Source: an uncultured Pseudomonadota bacterium (GTDB taxonomy: Bacteria; Pseudomonadota; Gammaproteobacteria; Ga0077536). Taken from it: a stretch of DNA of 64,000 nt. Location of the stretch: assembly GCA_903825645.1 (NCBI GenBank), contig CAIKBL010000013.1, positions 1 through 64,000 of the forward strand. The letters run 5' to 3'. Under the pieces are notes generated by a model. The model saw only the letters and a program-made list of their open reading frames with translations. It had not been told where the DNA came from and did no database searches. This document shows, piece by piece, positions 19,514-31,243 of this stretch (positions are counted from its first letter, which is position 1; the number at the start of each line of letters is the position of its first letter). Position numbers and translations under genes: made by a program.

Positions 19514-20596
19514 CTATGCGGCGGAAGGGGCGCTCCTTCCACGCGTCTGATACTTAGTCCAGAGATGGCGGGTGAGCATTCCGGGCGGCATCTTGACCCA
19601 GTGTGAGCGCAGATAGAGGCCACGGAGCGCGCAGCGTTCCAGAAAGTTCGGGGGAAGTGCGGGTAAGAGCGTCTTTCTGATGGCCCAGTTCATCAGCGCC
19701 CTGAGCGGCCAGATGGGTGCCGCAGCCGACAGTGCGGCCATGATGGCCGGTGGTACCGCCGTCCCGAAGAGCGTGTGAGCGGCCTGTAGGGCATAGTAGG
19801 TCGGGCGCTCGAAGTGGAAGGCGGTGGTTCGCGCCTCAAAAGTCGGCCAGAAATCAGGGATCTGTGCCGCAAAGTGACTGATGAGTTCGTGCACGTCGAG
19901 CACGTCCCGCCAGCAGTTGGCGAATTCACCGCCGTAAAAGCCATGGACGATGCTGTGAAGCACCATGTCGGCTGGAGCCAGTATGCGCAGACGAGAGCCC
20001 GGCAGCGGTAATGAGGCAGAGATCAAGGTGGCAGCGTCCGGACATAATCTCGAAGTTCGGGGCAGAATATTGTGATGGAGATCAACGACTGCGCCCCGTG
20101 TTGTATGCACTAATGGGGGCAGCTCGTGCATCCATTCGCGATAGTAACGCTCGTCATAGCTGGAGTGGGGTTGGGACCGCCAACCATATTCCTTGAGCGC
20201 GGTCTCGGCTTCTGCTAGTCGCTCCTGCGGGACGAGGATGTCGACATCGGAGAGCATGCGTGCTGTTCCCGGTGGGAGCTCTGCTAGTATGTAGGCAGCC
20301 CCTTTCAGTAGCACGACTGGGTAGTCTTGGTCGCGGAGTGCATGATCGATGCGATCGGCTTCCCAGCGCGCCATGCGCACGCGCTCTTGCGCCCGCAGGT
20401 GTTCTGACCAGAGGTGATTGCGAACCGGTTCGATTAGCTGTGTCAGCGTCCCTCGGGCTTCGAGCTGTGCGTGCCACCGACCGGCAAGGCCGTGGATTCG
20501 GCCGAGCGCTAGCATCCGTTCCCACTCGAAGACATTGAGTTTCAATAAAATCGCGACATGATCTAACTGGAAGGGCAGGGGCGGTAGGGGATACAA
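19514..20596 (-). CDS. nucleotidyltransferase family protein (NTP_transf_5 type), HPr-rel-A cluster
   Basis: The 360-residue protein has the large uncharacterised nucleotidyltransferase pattern: VVLLKGAAYIL, then the metal-binding DxD in MLSDVDILVP and a third acidic residue in VVDLHHNILP. The C-terminal half is helical. Relatives occur beside HprK-like kinases and PqqD-like proteins, including in some lasso-peptide clusters. It is divergent from the Tat-exported protein and faces a shared 200-base control region. The start is TTG at 20596; the next Met is at residue 28, so the N-terminus is uncertain. It may add a nucleotide or phosphate-bearing group to a peptide, lipid or sugar; no target is shown. 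Confidence 0.75.
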   Translation of the reverse strand: MYPLPPLPFQLDHVAILLKLNVFEWERMLALGRIHGLAGRWHAQLEARGTLTQLIEPVRNHLWSEHLRAQERVRMARWEADRIDHALRDQDYPVVLLKGAAYILAELPPGTARMLSDVDILVPQERLAEAETALKEYGWRSQPHSSYDERYYREWMHELPPLVHTTRGAVVDLHHNILPRTSRLCPDAATLISASLPLPGSRLRILAPADMVLHSIVHGFYGGEFANCWRDVLDVHELISHFAAQIPDFWPTFEARTTAFHFERPTYYALQAAHTLFGTAVPPAIMAALSAAAPIWPLRALMNWAIRKTLLPALPPNFLERCALRGLYLRSHWVKMPPGMLTRHLWTKYQTRGRSAPSAA

Positions 20597-20638
20597 GTCA
20601 ATATTCTTTACAAAAGGGGGCTATTGGTTACTTGGATT

Positions 20639-20656
20639 TGTAAAGCCAGCTTTACA
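20639..20656. promoter_or_regulatory. perfect 18-base palindrome, TyrR-box type (TGTAAA-N6-TTTACA)
   Basis: TGTAAAGCCAGCTTTACA has perfect 8-base arms around CA. It matches the known TyrR/PhhR consensus TGTAAA-N6-TTTACA. Its centre is about 120 bases upstream of the start site expected from the sigma-54 promoter at 20742, the right distance for an enhancer-binding protein site. It could equally act on the divergent nucleotidyltransferase gene. Confidence 0.6.
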
Positions 20657-20741
20657 CAATGGACGACACTAACCTAACCTGAAACCCGGTCCAAAAAAAG
20701 ATCTCGAGCAAGATCAAAAAATTAGCCCTTACAAAAAAAAT

Positions 20742-20757
20742 TGGCACGTTTTTTGCT
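20742..20757 (+). promoter_or_regulatory. sigma-54 promoter of the Tat-exported protein gene
   Basis: TGGCAC, five bases, then TTGCT: the -24 GG (20743-20744) and -12 GC (20755-20756) are ten bases apart, a perfect match to the RpoN consensus. Transcription would start near 20768, leaving a leader of about 25 bases with the ribosome site CCAGGAG before the ATG at 20793. Confidence 0.85.
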
Positions 20758-20792
20758 TATTTATTTGCATCAAAGTGCGCCAGGAGTTGAAG

Positions 20793-21497
20793 ATGGAAAC
20801 CAACCACGAATCCTCTCAGTCCCCGTCTGAGCCCTCGACCGGTACCACGCGACGAGGATTTTTGAAGGGCACGAGCCTAGCGCTTCCTGCCATTGTCACG
20901 CTTCACTCGGGAGCGGCGCTCGCAAATAGTAGTGCAGCCGCGAATTGTACGGCGGCCTTGTCGAGCTACCCAGTGTGTTCCGTTGCGCCAACCAACGGTA
21001 CTTTGTTGCGTATACAAACGCACTGTTTAAGGGCCATTGAAGTCAAATCCAGCCTACCCGGTGGTACGAGTCTTAGTACGTCCAACGTTACGACATACTA
21101 CCAAGTGAGCCCGAACTCAGGCGCCGCCTATTTTCTTGGCTTCACGGGCCAAACGTCCGGCACCCCAGCCTGGCGCTCCACCGGAGACGGGTCTCTAGTC
21201 GCCGTTGACGCCAATATGATTGAGGCCATGAATTATTTTTATTATGGCTCACTGACCCAGCCAGACATTTCAACTGCACCCAGTTACCAATCAGATACAG
21301 GTTCTACAAGCGCCCTACCTGGGGCCGGCGCTTATTGCGATTCGAGCGGTACTGGTTATGCCGTGTGTTGGATAAATACGAATGGTGCGATTACGGACGT
21401 GGGCGCAGGCGCAGCGGCTACCTCAGGCGCCATTGTTATCAGCTATCAGGGTGGGTGCTATACATCCATTTTTGGCGGCACCCTGCCCATTGTCTGA
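20793..21497 (+). CDS. Tat-exported protein of the HPr-rel-A cluster, unknown function
   Basis: The 234-residue protein starts at ATG 20793 with AGGAG at the right distance; a GTG at 20775 lies upstream of that site. A hydrophilic Ser/Thr-rich leader leads to the twin-arginine signal TTRRGFLKG, a hydrophobic stretch and a likely cleavage after ALA (SGAALA-NSS). The mature part is Ser/Thr/Gly/Tyr-rich, with six cysteines (for example SYPVCSVAP, GAYCDSS and GGCYTS), suggesting disulfides in the periplasm or outside. I do not recognise the fold. It is first in a run with PqqD-like and HprK-like genes and has its own sigma-54 promoter, so it may be the substrate of that system. Confidence 0.85.
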   Translation: METNHESSQSPSEPSTGTTRRGFLKGTSLALPAIVTLHSGAALANSSAAANCTAALSSYPVCSVAPTNGTLLRIQTHCLRAIEVKSSLPGGTSLSTSNVTTYYQVSPNSGAAYFLGFTGQTSGTPAWRSTGDGSLVAVDANMIEAMNYFYYGSLTQPDISTAPSYQSDTGSTSALPGAGAYCDSSGTGYAVCWINTNGAITDVGAGAAATSGAIVISYQGGCYTSIFGGTLPIV

Positions 21498-21501
21498 TGA
21501 G

Positions 21502-21783
21502 ATGAAGCGCTGGCAGGTCAACTCGTTGGCCCCGCTTGTTCTGCATACTTGGGGAGCGGTATCTTTTGTGTACCACCGCGAGTCCGGGCAGACGCACTTC
21601 ATCAACGCGTCTTGCCGCCAAATTCTGGAGCTCATTGCTGAACAATCGCTCACGACGATACAGGTACACGAACGTCTTCTGGAACATCACGGAATCGATG
21701 AAGATTCCGATCTGCAGGAAGCTGTGATTACGGTCATCCGGTTGCTCGAAGGCTTGGGCGTGGTGGTCGCCTGCGGTGGATGA
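21502..21783 (+). CDS. PqqD-like protein of the HPr-rel-A system
   Basis: The 93-residue protein starts at ATG 21502 (MKRWQVNSLAP), four bases after the stop of the exported protein; the upstream open frame is a shadow of that gene. It has the small winged-helix PqqD fold pattern: a strand ending in VYHRESGQTHFINASCRQILELI, then helices with LLEHHGI and a final VIRLLEGLGVV. PqqD-type domains bind leader peptides in RiPP pathways. Its 3' end overlaps the HprK-like kinase gene, so the two are probably co-translated. It is named as HPr-rel-A PqqD-like on context and pattern. Confidence 0.78.
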   Translation: MKRWQVNSLAPLVLHTWGAVSFVYHRESGQTHFINASCRQILELIAEQSLTTIQVHERLLEHHGIDEDSDLQEAVITVIRLLEGLGVVVACGG

Positions 21784-22711
21784 GGAAAATGCTCCGGCTT
21801 GGCTTCGCGATCTCCCGATAAGCGTCCTGCAGCGTCGACTCCAGCGGGGCTTGCGTTGCAAGGTGGGTCCGTTTGTCGTCTGCTTTCAAGGGCAGGAACG
21901 CTCCTTGGCAGAACGATTCCACGCACACTACCCCAATTATCCGCTTGTCGACGAGAACCGCTTCGCGGATGTCAAACTGCAAATACGCCGTAATCCGACT
22001 CTAGGTCGCCAGAGATGGACAACACGCGCCATTTCTCTGGAAGACGGGCGAGTTTTTACCACTTTCCCGGTAGCGGCAACGCTCGCCCATATTGAATGGA
22101 GCATGAACTGGGCGGTGGCGAATCGGTCCCATCATTTCCTTTCGCTTCACGCGGGGGTGATGGCGAATGAACATGGTGCGTTGATCCTGCCCGCGAACCC
22201 AGGGGCAGGGAAGAGCACGCTATGTGCCTACTTGATGCACCGCGGCTGGCGCTTGTTGTCTGATGAATTCACCCTGCTGCGCGACGCCAATCTGGCGGTT
22301 CATCCGTTTCCCAGGCTCATTCCGCTCAAAAACCGGTCCATCGACGTTATCCGTGAATTGGTTCCAGAAGCGCATCTGGCACCGCCTATACCCGGCACCC
22401 ACAAGGGGACGATCTCTCATCTGCGGCCACCCGATGTACACCTCCGTGCCATGCACGAGACGGCGGTGCCGAGACTGATGATCTTCCCGAAGTACACGGC
22501 GGGCGCGAAGTTGTCGATTAGCCCAGCCGCCCGTGCGGATTGTTTTGTGCAGATTACGCAGAATTCTTTCAACTACACGCTCCGGGGAGAAGAAGGATTT
22601 CGGATGGCCGTGGCTCTGACGGAGCGCGTGCAGCCCTATCGGCTCGAATACAGCGATTTGCCAGAGGCGGCGCAGGCCATTGATGCGCTCATGCAGGAAG
22701 CTGCCGCCTGA
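21776..22711 (+). CDS. HprK-related kinase A
   Basis: The 311-residue protein starts at GTG 21776, overlapping the PqqD-like gene by 8 bases. The C-terminal half is HPr kinase-like: LHAGVMAN, P-loop PANPGAGKST (139-148), LLSDEFTLL with acidic pair D163/E164, and the downstream KGTISHLRPP. Classical HprK phosphorylates a Ser on HPr; related kinases phosphorylate the C-terminal Ser of lasso peptides. The N-terminal half (about 1-115) lacks the usual HprK regulatory sequence. With the nucleotidyltransferase and PqqD-like partner it matches the uncharacterised HPr-rel-A system. The target is unknown. Confidence 0.82.
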   Translation: MDEENAPAWLRDLPISVLQRRLQRGLRCKVGPFVVCFQGQERSLAERFHAHYPNYPLVDENRFADVKLQIRRNPTLGRQRWTTRAISLEDGRVFTTFPVAATLAHIEWSMNWAVANRSHHFLSLHAGVMANEHGALILPANPGAGKSTLCAYLMHRGWRLLSDEFTLLRDANLAVHPFPRLIPLKNRSIDVIRELVPEAHLAPPIPGTHKGTISHLRPPDVHLRAMHETAVPRLMIFPKYTAGAKLSISPAARADCFVQITQNSFNYTLRGEEGFRMAVALTERVQPYRLEYSDLPEAAQAIDALMQEAAA

Positions 22712-28479: not shown

Positions 28480-29442
28480 TCAACAAGGGGCGACTTCGCG
28501 TAAGAAGCGCAGCATTTGTGTCGTGGTTTCCGTGGGCTTTTCGACCTGCAACCAGTGTCCGGCGCCGGCAATGAGTTCGATGAACCGGAGATCATCAAAA
28601 GCCTGCGGAAACCACTGCCGCCAGGTCGAATCATAGAGGAGCACATTATCTTCGCGGCCAGCGATGAAGGCTGCCGGTTGCGTAAATTTTCGGTCTTCCA
28701 GTTCCAGCGTCAGGGCATTCATGGTGGGTAGGTTACGGTACAGGTTGCAAGGACCGCGGAAGCCGCTGTGTTGATACTGAGCGACGTAATAGGCGAGATC
28801 GGCTTCGCTTAACCACGCGGGTAAGCGCGCGGGCAGGGGCAGTACATCAAGAAGTCGGCTGCTTCGTGGATACTCGAGCTGTTTCATCCAGGTCAGGGTG
28901 GGGGCATCAGCCGAAATACCATAATAGATTCTGAGTAGGCTTGCGCGAATATCGGTTTCGAGTTCGGCCTCGACGACACCTGGGGTTTGGAAATACCGGA
29001 TATACCAGAATTTATCCTCCATCCCCGGGGGATCTATTGTGGCCCGACCGGCGCGCCAGAACGGCACTGATAGCCCCATGACAGTCTTGCAATGCGTCGG
29101 GTGCAACAGCGCGGTGTTCCAGGCAATGATGCAGCCCCAGTCATGTCCAATGAGGTTGAATTCGGCATACCCGAGTGCGTGTGCGAGCCCGACGACATCC
29201 GCCGCCATCTGGCGGATGTTGTAGTCTTCGATAGCCGGTGGTCTGCTACTACCCCCAAAGCCGCGTTGGTCGGGGACTGCGACCCGATAGCCTGCTGCCA
29301 CCAACGGGGCAATCTGATGCCGCCAAAGATACCAGCACTGCGGCCAACCATGGAGCAGGATGACGAGCGGTCCGTCCCCTTGAACCACTGTCCGTAGGGT
29401 GACGCCATTTGTCTCAATCATTTCAAAAGTAGGTTCAAGCAT
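28480..29442 (-). CDS. alpha/beta hydrolase, epoxide hydrolase-like
   Basis: The 320-residue protein has the oxyanion motif [13 protein letters not shown], the nucleophile elbow GHDWGC with an Asp nucleophile (as in epoxide hydrolases and haloalkane dehalogenases), cap-domain tyrosines ([20 protein letters not shown]) and the catalytic His in [11 protein letters not shown]. This pattern favours soluble epoxide hydrolase, which opens epoxides to diols. It overlaps the following P-loop gene by 8 bases. An oxygenase in the cell, such as the di-iron enzyme at 48.9 kb, could supply epoxides, but that link is inference. Confidence 0.85.
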
Positions 29443-30289
29443 GCGAATGCGCCTGTTTCAGGACGCCCTCCAGACAGTTGAGAAAATCATTTTCGGATTG
29501 TGCCTGTGCGAGCGTGTCCGCGCTGACGCGATAACCGTATTGGTGCGCAATGGCTTCATAGCGAGGGACACGGGCCTGCAATAGGCGCGGAAACATCCAG
29601 AGCACGAATTCGTCGGGGTTGATAGCCTCGCTCGTCAGCAAACCTCGTGAGGACATGAATCGGGCGAGCTCGGTCGCTAGAAACTCGGTCCGGTAGTAGA
29701 GCGGTTTCGGCTCGGCCTCTGCACGGCGGAGCAGCTCCTGTCCGTTTTCAGGGGTGGCTTCGATGTAGATCAGGAGCGTATGTTCGGCGAGGATCTTCAG
29801 GACATCCTCGTCGTCCAGCTCGCACAAACTGCCGGCTGAATCATTGATGAAATGTCGGTAACCGTAAATCTCTCGGGCCTTTCTGATGAAGGTCGGGACT
29901 TCGAGCATGGCGGCGACTTCGGCATCTCGGTAGAGTTTCTGTCGGCGCTGGAACTCTATTAAGGGCAAACCGCCTTGCGCCGGATCGCCGAGCTTGCCGA
30001 GAAAGGTCAGCACCGCCGTCAGGTTATCGACGGTGATGTTATTCGAAATGTAGATGGAATCCGTCCGCAGCAGATCCCGCAAAAATGGGATCTGCATGGC
30101 CTGTGATTTTATGTTGTCCAGGATCGGCTCATTCAGATAGCGGGTTCCGATCCGATAATCTGCTGAATAGTGAAACCAATGGGCTTGCCGCAGACGCGAG
30201 GACAGATACGTCTTGCCGACGCCGGACATGCCGATCAACGTCACCGACTTAGCTTCCCAGCGTCTAAATGCTGCTGCAGTCATTTTCAT
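29435..30289 (-). CDS. P-loop ATPase/kinase of unknown role
   Basis: The 284-residue protein has Walker A near the N-terminus (TLIGMSGVGKTYLS) resembling shikimate/nucleoside kinases, then WFHYSADYRIGTRYLNEP. Later features are HFINDSAGSLCELDDED and LLIYIEATPENGQELLRRAE, consistent with a kinase-like P-loop fold. No membrane segment is seen. It overlaps the epoxide-hydrolase gene and follows a PhyH-family gene by 54 bases. I recall similar proteins annotated only as ATPase. No substrate can be assigned. Confidence 0.75.
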   Translation of the reverse strand: MKMTAAAFRRWEAKSVTLIGMSGVGKTYLSSRLRQAHWFHYSADYRIGTRYLNEPILDNIKSQAMQIPFLRDLLRTDSIYISNNITVDNLTAVLTFLGKLGDPAQGGLPLIEFQRRQKLYRDAEVAAMLEVPTFIRKAREIYGYRHFINDSAGSLCELDDEDVLKILAEHTLLIYIEATPENGQELLRRAEAEPKPLYYRTEFLATELARFMSSRGLLTSEAINPDEFVLWMFPRLLQARVPRYEAIAHQYGYRVSADTLAQAQSENDFLNCLEGVLKQAHSHA

Positions 30290-30343: not shown

Positions 30344-31243
30344 TCACCTTGCGGCCGATTTACCGCGAAGGTTCCTAGTCAGTCCGCCCCGTTCATGGAG
30401 CGCTGTTTTGGCGCGAATTTGCTCAAAGCCGATTGGGAAGGGACGCAGTCGCGGAAAAGCCGGGTGGCGGAAGAGATCGCCATCCTTTAGCGTGTCATGC
30501 AGCCCACTGTTGAGGGGCAGTGGTGCCCGAATCGATCGCGCCGCATAGTGGGCATCTTCGCCAAAGAAATGAAGGGTGAGGGTGCGCTGCCGAACTCCGG
30601 CCTCGCATCCTCCATCAGCTTGCAGGACGGCGGGATGACAAATCAGGACATCGCCCGGCATGACATCCCACGCGACCACATCGCGCGTCTCGGACTGCTT
30701 TTCAATACCTTCGTTGGGCACGTCGACACCGTCACTGGGTCGCTCGTCAGCGGCGGCGTCGAACGCAGATCGCGCCTCGTTTGCCTCGTGATGAGAGCCC
30801 CGCACAAATTCGGGTGAGTGGGCCTTGCTGGTGGCATCCAGGATTATCCGAACCACTGCTATCTGTTTGCCGCGCAGCGCCAGCTCTGATGAGGGTCGGT
30901 GCCACGCTGTCCGACGGGTAGTCGGTCCGTCGAGGAGACACACCGTTTCATGGAGGAACCACACGGACGAAGGTCCCCATAAACCAGCAAGGATGTCGGG
31001 TAGCGGCGATTCGCATAGGAGCTCCTGGTAGATGTTCGCCGCCTCGGGATGACACCTATCCTCGTAGCAGGTCCCCCCGGCGTCCTCGGTGGACTGGATG
31101 GCCGCTGGCGTCGGGTGACCGAGGCTCCACTCGAAACCTTTCTCGGCGAGTGACAGCGCGTCGTTTTCCAAGACCTGCGGTAGGATAACGACACCGTCCT
31201 TGCGCAGCCGATCAGCGCAAATAATCAGAGGTTCACGCACCAT
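30344..31243 (-). CDS. phytanoyl-CoA dioxygenase family protein with altered metal site
   Basis: The 299-residue protein resembles PhyH-type 2-oxoglutarate/Fe(II) oxygenases: DGVVILPQVL at the N-terminus, FLHETVCLL, GKQIAVVRIILD, SPEFVRGSHH, the distal His in GDVLICHPAVLQADGG and an Arg in RQRTLTLHFFGED that could bind 2-oxoglutarate. The usual HxD iron motif is replaced by His-Arg-Pro (TAWHRPSSE), so the facial triad lacks its acid. The protein may be inactive, halogenase-like or re-purposed. It lies 8 bases after the start-side neighbour, the CoA-transferase gene. Confidence 0.72.
   Translation of the reverse strand: MVREPLIICADRLRKDGVVILPQVLENDALSLAEKGFEWSLGHPTPAAIQSTEDAGGTCYEDRCHPEAANIYQELLCESPLPDILAGLWGPSSVWFLHETVCLLDGPTTRRTAWHRPSSELALRGKQIAVVRIILDATSKAHSPEFVRGSHHEANEARSAFDAAADERPSDGVDVPNEGIEKQSETRDVVAWDVMPGDVLICHPAVLQADGGCEAGVRQRTLTLHFFGEDAHYAARSIRAPLPLNSGLHDTLKDGDLFRHPAFPRLRPFPIGFEQIRAKTALHERGGLTRNLRGKSAAR

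Follow-up and report, generated by a model that had tools for sequence, protein, structure and literature searches.

A Tat-exported protein is the regular partner, and very probably the substrate, of the HPr-rel-A kinase cassette

The HPr-rel-A cassette (NCBIfam) described here lies at positions 19514-22711 of a 64,000-nucleotide stretch of DNA (the window), positions 1 to 64,000 of contig CAIKBL010000013.1 from an uncultured gammaproteobacterium. Its four genes encode an NTP_transf_5 nucleotidyltransferase, a protein exported by the twin-arginine translocation (Tat) pathway, a PqqD-like peptide chaperone, and an HprK-related kinase. We find that the Tat protein almost certainly forms one functional unit with the rest of the cassette, and that it is very probably the substrate that the cassette modifies. 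The Tat gene is preceded by a PEP-CTERM box and a sigma-54 promoter. Taken as a whole, the evidence makes it reasonably likely that the cassette is a pre-export tailoring system, similar to those of ribosomally synthesized and post-translationally modified peptides (RiPPs), which acts on a protein that the Tat pathway exports to the exopolysaccharide matrix.

RESULTS

The Tat protein is an almost constant partner of the kinase

When 369 genomes of the class were scanned with the kinase profile, 40 scored above its cut-off, and the neighborhoods were then compared. PqqD, kinase, and nucleotidyltransferase were found together in nearly all intact cassettes compared, and of the 51 HPr-rel-A loci with a readable upstream side, which are spread over many families, 50 encode a Tat-signal protein immediately before PqqD. 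This count includes L127 and L132, which were obtained by frame reading, and L050, represented by its C-terminal part only; L129, which ends early, was excluded. In L051, the sole exception, PqqD and most of the nucleotidyltransferase are missing as well. A search with the window's Tat protein in 58 related genomes gave ten matches at E < 1e-4, all of them adjoining the kinase. An earlier note on this DNA had proposed that the exported protein is the target of the modification system, a claim that depended on co-occurrence in other genomes; the near-universal linkage found here supports it.

Three loci merit a separate description. L051 (L051:8671-9818), from the same-genus genome G005, retains an intact kinase and a nucleotidyltransferase reduced to 93 amino acids (aa), the PqqD and Tat genes being lost; it is a decaying cassette. 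L052:3482-5812 (G022), in which an in-frame stop breaks the kinase frame and an intact Tat gene was not found at the locus, is another decaying copy. The public record CAMATU010000038.1 (L032), titled Klebsiella pneumoniae, encodes a kinase 75% identical to that of the window and is probably a mislabeled metagenome bin.

Composition of the cassette in the window

All four genes were confirmed (Table 1). The earlier note had read here an NTP_transf_5-type nucleotidyltransferase with a DxD motif, an overlapping pair of PqqD-like and HprK-like proteins, a kinase P-loop at residues 139-148, and a 234-residue Tat protein with six cysteines, and each of these readings holds. D117 and D119 of the nucleotidyltransferase are kept in 49/49 sequences; the kinase gene overlaps the PqqD gene by 8 nt; the P-loop, PANPGAGKST, is found at residues 139-148; and the Tat protein has its twin arginines at residues 20-21 and six cysteines. 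The plus-strand genes run in the order Tat protein, PqqD_rel_X, HprK_rel_A. The listed start of the PqqD-like open reading frame (ORF), 21382, is a mere mechanical extension, the ATG being at 21502; the encoded protein scores slightly below the cut-off of PF05402. Residues H125, G143, G145, K146, D163, and E164 are invariant in 51 kinase sequences, as are K98, R113, D117, D119, E131, D172, H174, and H175 in 49 nucleotidyltransferase sequences; because these catalytic residues are invariant, both enzymes look active. A sequence search of solved structures gave no match to the kinase; all that it gave for the nucleotidyltransferase was a chance match.

Table 1. Features of the cassette and its surroundings in the window
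Feature	Position	Strand	Remarks
Nucleotidyltransferase NTP_transf_5 (PF14907)	19514..20596	-	168.4 bits, cut-off 31; divergent from the other three genes
PEP-CTERM motif 1, first copy, AGTCAATATTCTTTACA	20596..20612	+	Candidate PrsR site; TTTACA and its spacing kept in relatives of the same genus and of the same family
PEP-CTERM motif 1, second copy, GTAAAGCCAGCTTTACA	20640..20656	+	85 nt before the sigma-54 site
Sigma-54 -24/-12 promoter, TGGCACGTTTTTTGCT	20742..20757	+	Score 15/17; upstream of the Tat gene
Tat-exported type B protein, 234 aa	20793..21497 (ATG)	+	Orthologues at the same place in relatives
PqqD-like peptide chaperone (PqqD_rel_X, TIGR04353)	21502..21783 (ATG)	+	44.7 bits, cut-off 35
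HprK-related kinase A (HprK_rel_A, TIGR04352)	21776..22711 (GTG)	+	306.2 bits, curated cut-off 200
284-aa protein	29435..30289	-	P-loop (GMSGVGKT); no Pfam match
299-aa ORF	30344..31243		Adjoins the 284-aa P-loop protein

The ten flanking proteins scanned included no member of a lasso protease or cyclase family; the earlier note had likewise stated that such genes are absent. Nine of the ten match families of general metabolism or transport (acyl-CoA dehydrogenase, two short-chain dehydrogenases, two enoyl-CoA hydratases, AMP-ligase, TauE, zinc-binding dehydrogenase, and alpha/beta hydrolase), and one, the 284-aa protein of Table 1, is without a match. A PHROGs search, made with the window's proteins only, did not support a phage origin and did not recognize the substrate type.

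Two unrelated types of exported protein and their kinases

The exported proteins belong to two unrelated types, A and B, and that of the window is type B. The 19 type B proteins compared have only the leader and the C-terminus in common, with a highly variable middle. A leader motif, P-x-x-x-T-L, is present in 19/19 (P32-x-x-x-T36-L37 in the window), and near the C-terminus all 19 carry [CAS]-x-x-S-[LIFA] with an invariant Ser. The form C-x-x-S occurs in 16/19; the other three have Ala or Ser in place of Cys and retain the Ser. In the window's protein the candidate acceptor is S225, within C222-x-x-S225. Most substrates are 120-290 aa long, and at the extreme one type B protein (L123) has merely 74 aa, a leader plus a short peptide.

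In type A (27 sequences aligned), the signal is followed by C-x-x-S-G-x-x-S-G-N-x-S, with the Cys and one Ser conserved in 27/27, and downstream of this Ser-rich segment comes a helical domain with S-P-G-Y-W and H-A-V-A-A-L-L-N. A model of one type A protein gave low confidence for the Ser-rich tail and high confidence for the helical domain that follows; low confidence is what a flexible acceptor tail would be expected to show, and the modeled stretch is probably flexible. Neither Foldseek nor VIA-align gave a convincing match for the type A domain, a result that does not by itself show a new fold. Representatives of both types searched against Pfam and NCBIfam matched nothing beyond weak Tat-signal models.

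Each substrate type goes with its own kinase clade, without exception. In a kinase tree of 47 rows, a single branch with support of 100/100 splits types A and B, so that substrate type changes once on the tree, versus 15.4 times for shuffled labels (0/500 shuffles were as low). Family f134 holds both types, A in G280 and B in G168, each with the matching kinase. We take this match as support and not as proof, because operon inheritance contributes to it.

The type B leader is not a generic Tat signal

The Tat signal of the window's protein, TRRGFLKG-TSLALPAIVTLHSGAALA, contains a twin-arginine motif, a hydrophobic stretch, and an AxA site; the twin arginines are invariant in all 16 sequences compared. 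Against the general Tat-signal model TIGR01409 the protein scored 13.4, below the cut-off of 16.7. A profile of the type B leader, run over the 369 genomes, gave 36 matches, of which 29 lie beside an HprK-like kinase: 20 beside a kinase over the cut-off, and the other 9 no more than about 3 kb from a diverged one. Because 29/36 matches adjoin such kinases, the type B leader is not a generic Tat signal. When the window's Tat protein and PqqD were modeled as a single-chain fusion, the PqqD part (residues 251-329) had a block predicted local distance difference test (pLDDT) score of 87-96.

A third group, of short Tat-leader peptides, was also observed (L139:4775-7178, L163, L164, L165, L166, L167, L168, L169, L170, L171, and L172). 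These peptides have 57-149 aa, occur up to three in tandem, and share a leader of the form SRRxFLKKTAYVAPAVLTLKAxPALA-GS...; several carry CNNGxGNGxDCxPPGH. They often stand beside diverged HprK-like kinases, lasso-type PqqD proteins, and weak NTP_transf_5 relatives, which suggests a wider class.

The cassette has a probable PEP-CTERM/PrsR promoter

The region from 20596 to 20757, which the earlier note had not seen, holds a PEP-CTERM box and a sigma-54 promoter. Haft and colleagues described a motif 1 and a sigma-54 site before PEP-CTERM genes, tied to the regulator PrsR, with the -24/-12 site following motif 1 at 32-92 nt (PMC1569441); in another bacterium, experiments have shown a PEP-CTERM gene to depend on RpoN (PMC9850573). 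Motif 1 has 17 nt and ends in TTTACA. Two copies precede the window's sigma-54 site, and the 85-nt spacing of the second falls within the published range for PEP-CTERM/PrsR promoters.

The joint motif of box and sigma-54 site was present in 28/48 Tat upstream regions versus 15/3000 random windows (0.5%). It occurs once in the 64-kb window, both strands counted; four times in nine loci of the window's family, always before the Tat gene; and in 7/19 loci around this genome's PEP-CTERM matches, two of these being one site. Motif 1 and the sigma-54 site tend to be separated by about 52, 63, 74, or 85 nt. These spacings have a periodicity of some 11 nt, roughly one helical turn (Rayleigh p about 6e-7, kinship among the sequences ignored), as would be expected of an activator bound to one face of the helix; this suggests that PrsR-type activation needs helical phasing. 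A first genome-wide pattern search for the box, set too narrow, gave no matches, and a second narrow search gave only two, both upstream of PEP-CTERM matches, and missed the window's 85-nt site.

The source genome encodes PrsR (684 bits), two exosortase matches, and some 18 PEP-CTERM matches. PrsR is found in 39/40 kinase genomes versus 66/329 others (p = 4e-23, shared ancestry ignored), and the sole kinase genome without it is 75% complete. In G394, G141, G377, and G158 the cassette lies 3-7 kb from prsR, inside PrsR/PrsK polysaccharide loci whose other members include PrsT, PrsK or another histidine kinase, an XrtA-associated ATPase, a sugar transferase, GalE, and UDP-glucose dehydrogenase. 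The window's Tat protein has no match to the PEP-CTERM tail model TIGR02595 at E up to 1.

DISCUSSION

In lasso peptide biosynthesis, the precursor is phosphorylated on its C-terminal Ser by an HprK-like kinase (PadeK, PsmK) before it matures, and the hexoses carried by that phosphate require PsmN, a homologue of nucleotidyltransferases (PMC9266682). Because the cassette has the same three activities as lasso tailoring, and type B proteins a conserved Ser at about the matching position, we propose that it carries out a leader-guided Ser phosphorylation. PrsK/PrsR and sigma-54 would switch on the operon jointly with the PEP-CTERM genes, a step for which the promoter argues strongly. The Tat signal would double as a leader, the PqqD-like protein binding P-x-x-x-T-L and keeping the preprotein in the cytoplasm.

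The conserved leader motif could also be read in another way, with the PqqD-like protein as a Tat proofreading chaperone that delays export until the protein has folded or been modified by something else, and with the kinase and nucleotidyltransferase acting on a different molecule, for example a nucleotide sugar or a carrier of polysaccharide. Chaperones that proofread Tat substrates are well established, and polysaccharide genes surround the cassette in some genomes. However, PqqD-like domains in known systems serve peptide-modifying enzymes, and kinase clade follows substrate type, as it would not have to if the kinases shared a small-molecule substrate; we consider proofreading an unlikely explanation.

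On the tailoring scheme, the HprK-like kinase would then phosphorylate the invariant Ser, which in type B lies close to the C-terminus (S225 in the window) and in type A within the C-x-x-S-G-x-x-S-G-N-x-S tail, as conservation and the lasso-peptide kinases suggest. We lean, by a little, toward phosphorylation of this residue. The conserved motif around it bears on a second alternative, that the products are natural products of the RiPP type: the kinase would activate Ser for elimination or for cross-linking with the nearby Cys, and the terminal peptide would be released as a signal or antimicrobial. The C-x-x-S of type A and of 16/19 type B proteins, the 74-aa protein of L123, and the tandem short Tat-leader peptides beside related kinases would all suit such products. 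Yet the cassette is without a lyase, cyclase, or protease gene, the three type B proteins with Ala or Ser for Cys keep the Ser, most substrates are proteins of 120-290 aa, and the type A protein that was modeled has a folded domain. A peptide product is thus slightly less probable still than proofreading.

In the remaining steps of the tailoring scheme, the NTP_transf_5 enzyme may add a sugar or nucleotide to the phosphate as a cap, as PsmN probably does on pseudomycoidin; we offer this only tentatively. The Tat pathway can carry folded proteins, and it suits the system because cytoplasmic enzymes must act before export. The modified protein would be delivered to the cell surface or matrix, as regulation and gene location suggest, and we put a role of the Tat protein in the matrix at about even chances. 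That the four genes are mere neighbors sharing a promoter region, with the Tat protein structural in the matrix and the enzymes separate, would agree with the opposite strand of the nucleotidyltransferase in the window's family and with evidence that is entirely genomic, but is very improbable, since the genes stay linked over many families, two unrelated substrate types are matched to kinase clades, and the Tat leader profile is nearly confined to kinase neighborhoods.

Several observations weigh against pre-export tailoring under PrsR control. In the Tat-PqqD fusion model, the leader block (residues 11-50) reached a pLDDT of only 42-64. Co-inheritance within an operon would by itself make substrate and kinase trees agree, and the genome counts for kinase and PrsR take no account of common descent. 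The window's box, with its 85-nt spacing and other flanking letters, differs somewhat from the genome's PEP-CTERM boxes (71-76 nt), and the genome also holds other NtrC-type activators. Lastly, lasso kinases have His-Lys-Asp-Asp, and the fourth position here is seemingly Glu (E164 in 51/51).

HPr-rel-A has so far been named without a substrate; the Tat protein, a likely acceptor residue, and the regulon make its function testable. The cassette recurs across gammaproteobacteria and points to an undescribed chemical modification of a secreted protein. Through it, RiPP-type tailoring enzymes are connected with the Tat pathway, and both with the exosortase/exopolysaccharide machinery that takes part in floc and biofilm formation. 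A doubtful extension is a general, hitherto undescribed form of protein modification in gram-negative bacteria: the Tat signal would act as a leader of the RiPP type, and a matrix protein would be exported with phosphoserine or a phosphate-linked sugar or nucleotide, anchoring or priming the exopolysaccharide. Neither HPr-rel-A nor an HprK-related kinase is mentioned under those names in the open literature searched, although the notes of the NCBIfam curators, which were outside the search, may hold part of this; the open literature searched describes no substrate for HPr-rel-A. New here are the PEP-CTERM box with its sigma-54 promoter, the co-occurrence with PrsR, and the location of cassettes within PrsR/PrsK loci.

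The window's kinase and PqqD, both over the cut-offs of TIGR04352 and TIGR04353, and the adjoining PF14907 nucleotidyltransferase place the cassette in HPr-rel-A, to which the Tat protein and the PEP-CTERM box are newly assigned; a Tat-signal protein directly upstream of PqqD, as found in the window, is a criterion for HPr-rel-A that we propose ourselves and that is not a published one. SynChlorMet shares the pairing of an HprK-like kinase (ScmC) with a PqqD-like protein (ScmD), but the match of the window's kinase to the ScmC profile is weak, its 23.8 bits being far under the family cut-off of 125. The PEP-CTERM/exosortase system with PrsK/PrsR/sigma-54 shares the promoter box, the PrsR co-occurrence, and, in some genomes, the PrsR/PrsK/polysaccharide loci; the Tat protein differs in having no PEP-CTERM tail and in using Tat instead of Sec and exosortase. 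Lasso tailoring by PadeK/ThcoK and PsmK/PsmN also combines an HprK-like kinase, a nucleotidyltransferase, a PqqD-like leader binder, and a Ser near the precursor C-terminus (PMC9266682), whereas the window's cassette has no lasso protease or cyclase, its substrates are Tat exported and mostly 120-290 aa long, and the fourth catalytic Asp of the kinase seems to be Glu. Because it is unlike both the lasso systems, in having no protease or cyclase, and the PEP-CTERM proteins, in having no tail, we file the cassette as a putative variant of leader-guided tailoring, with a chemistry predicted from its genes.

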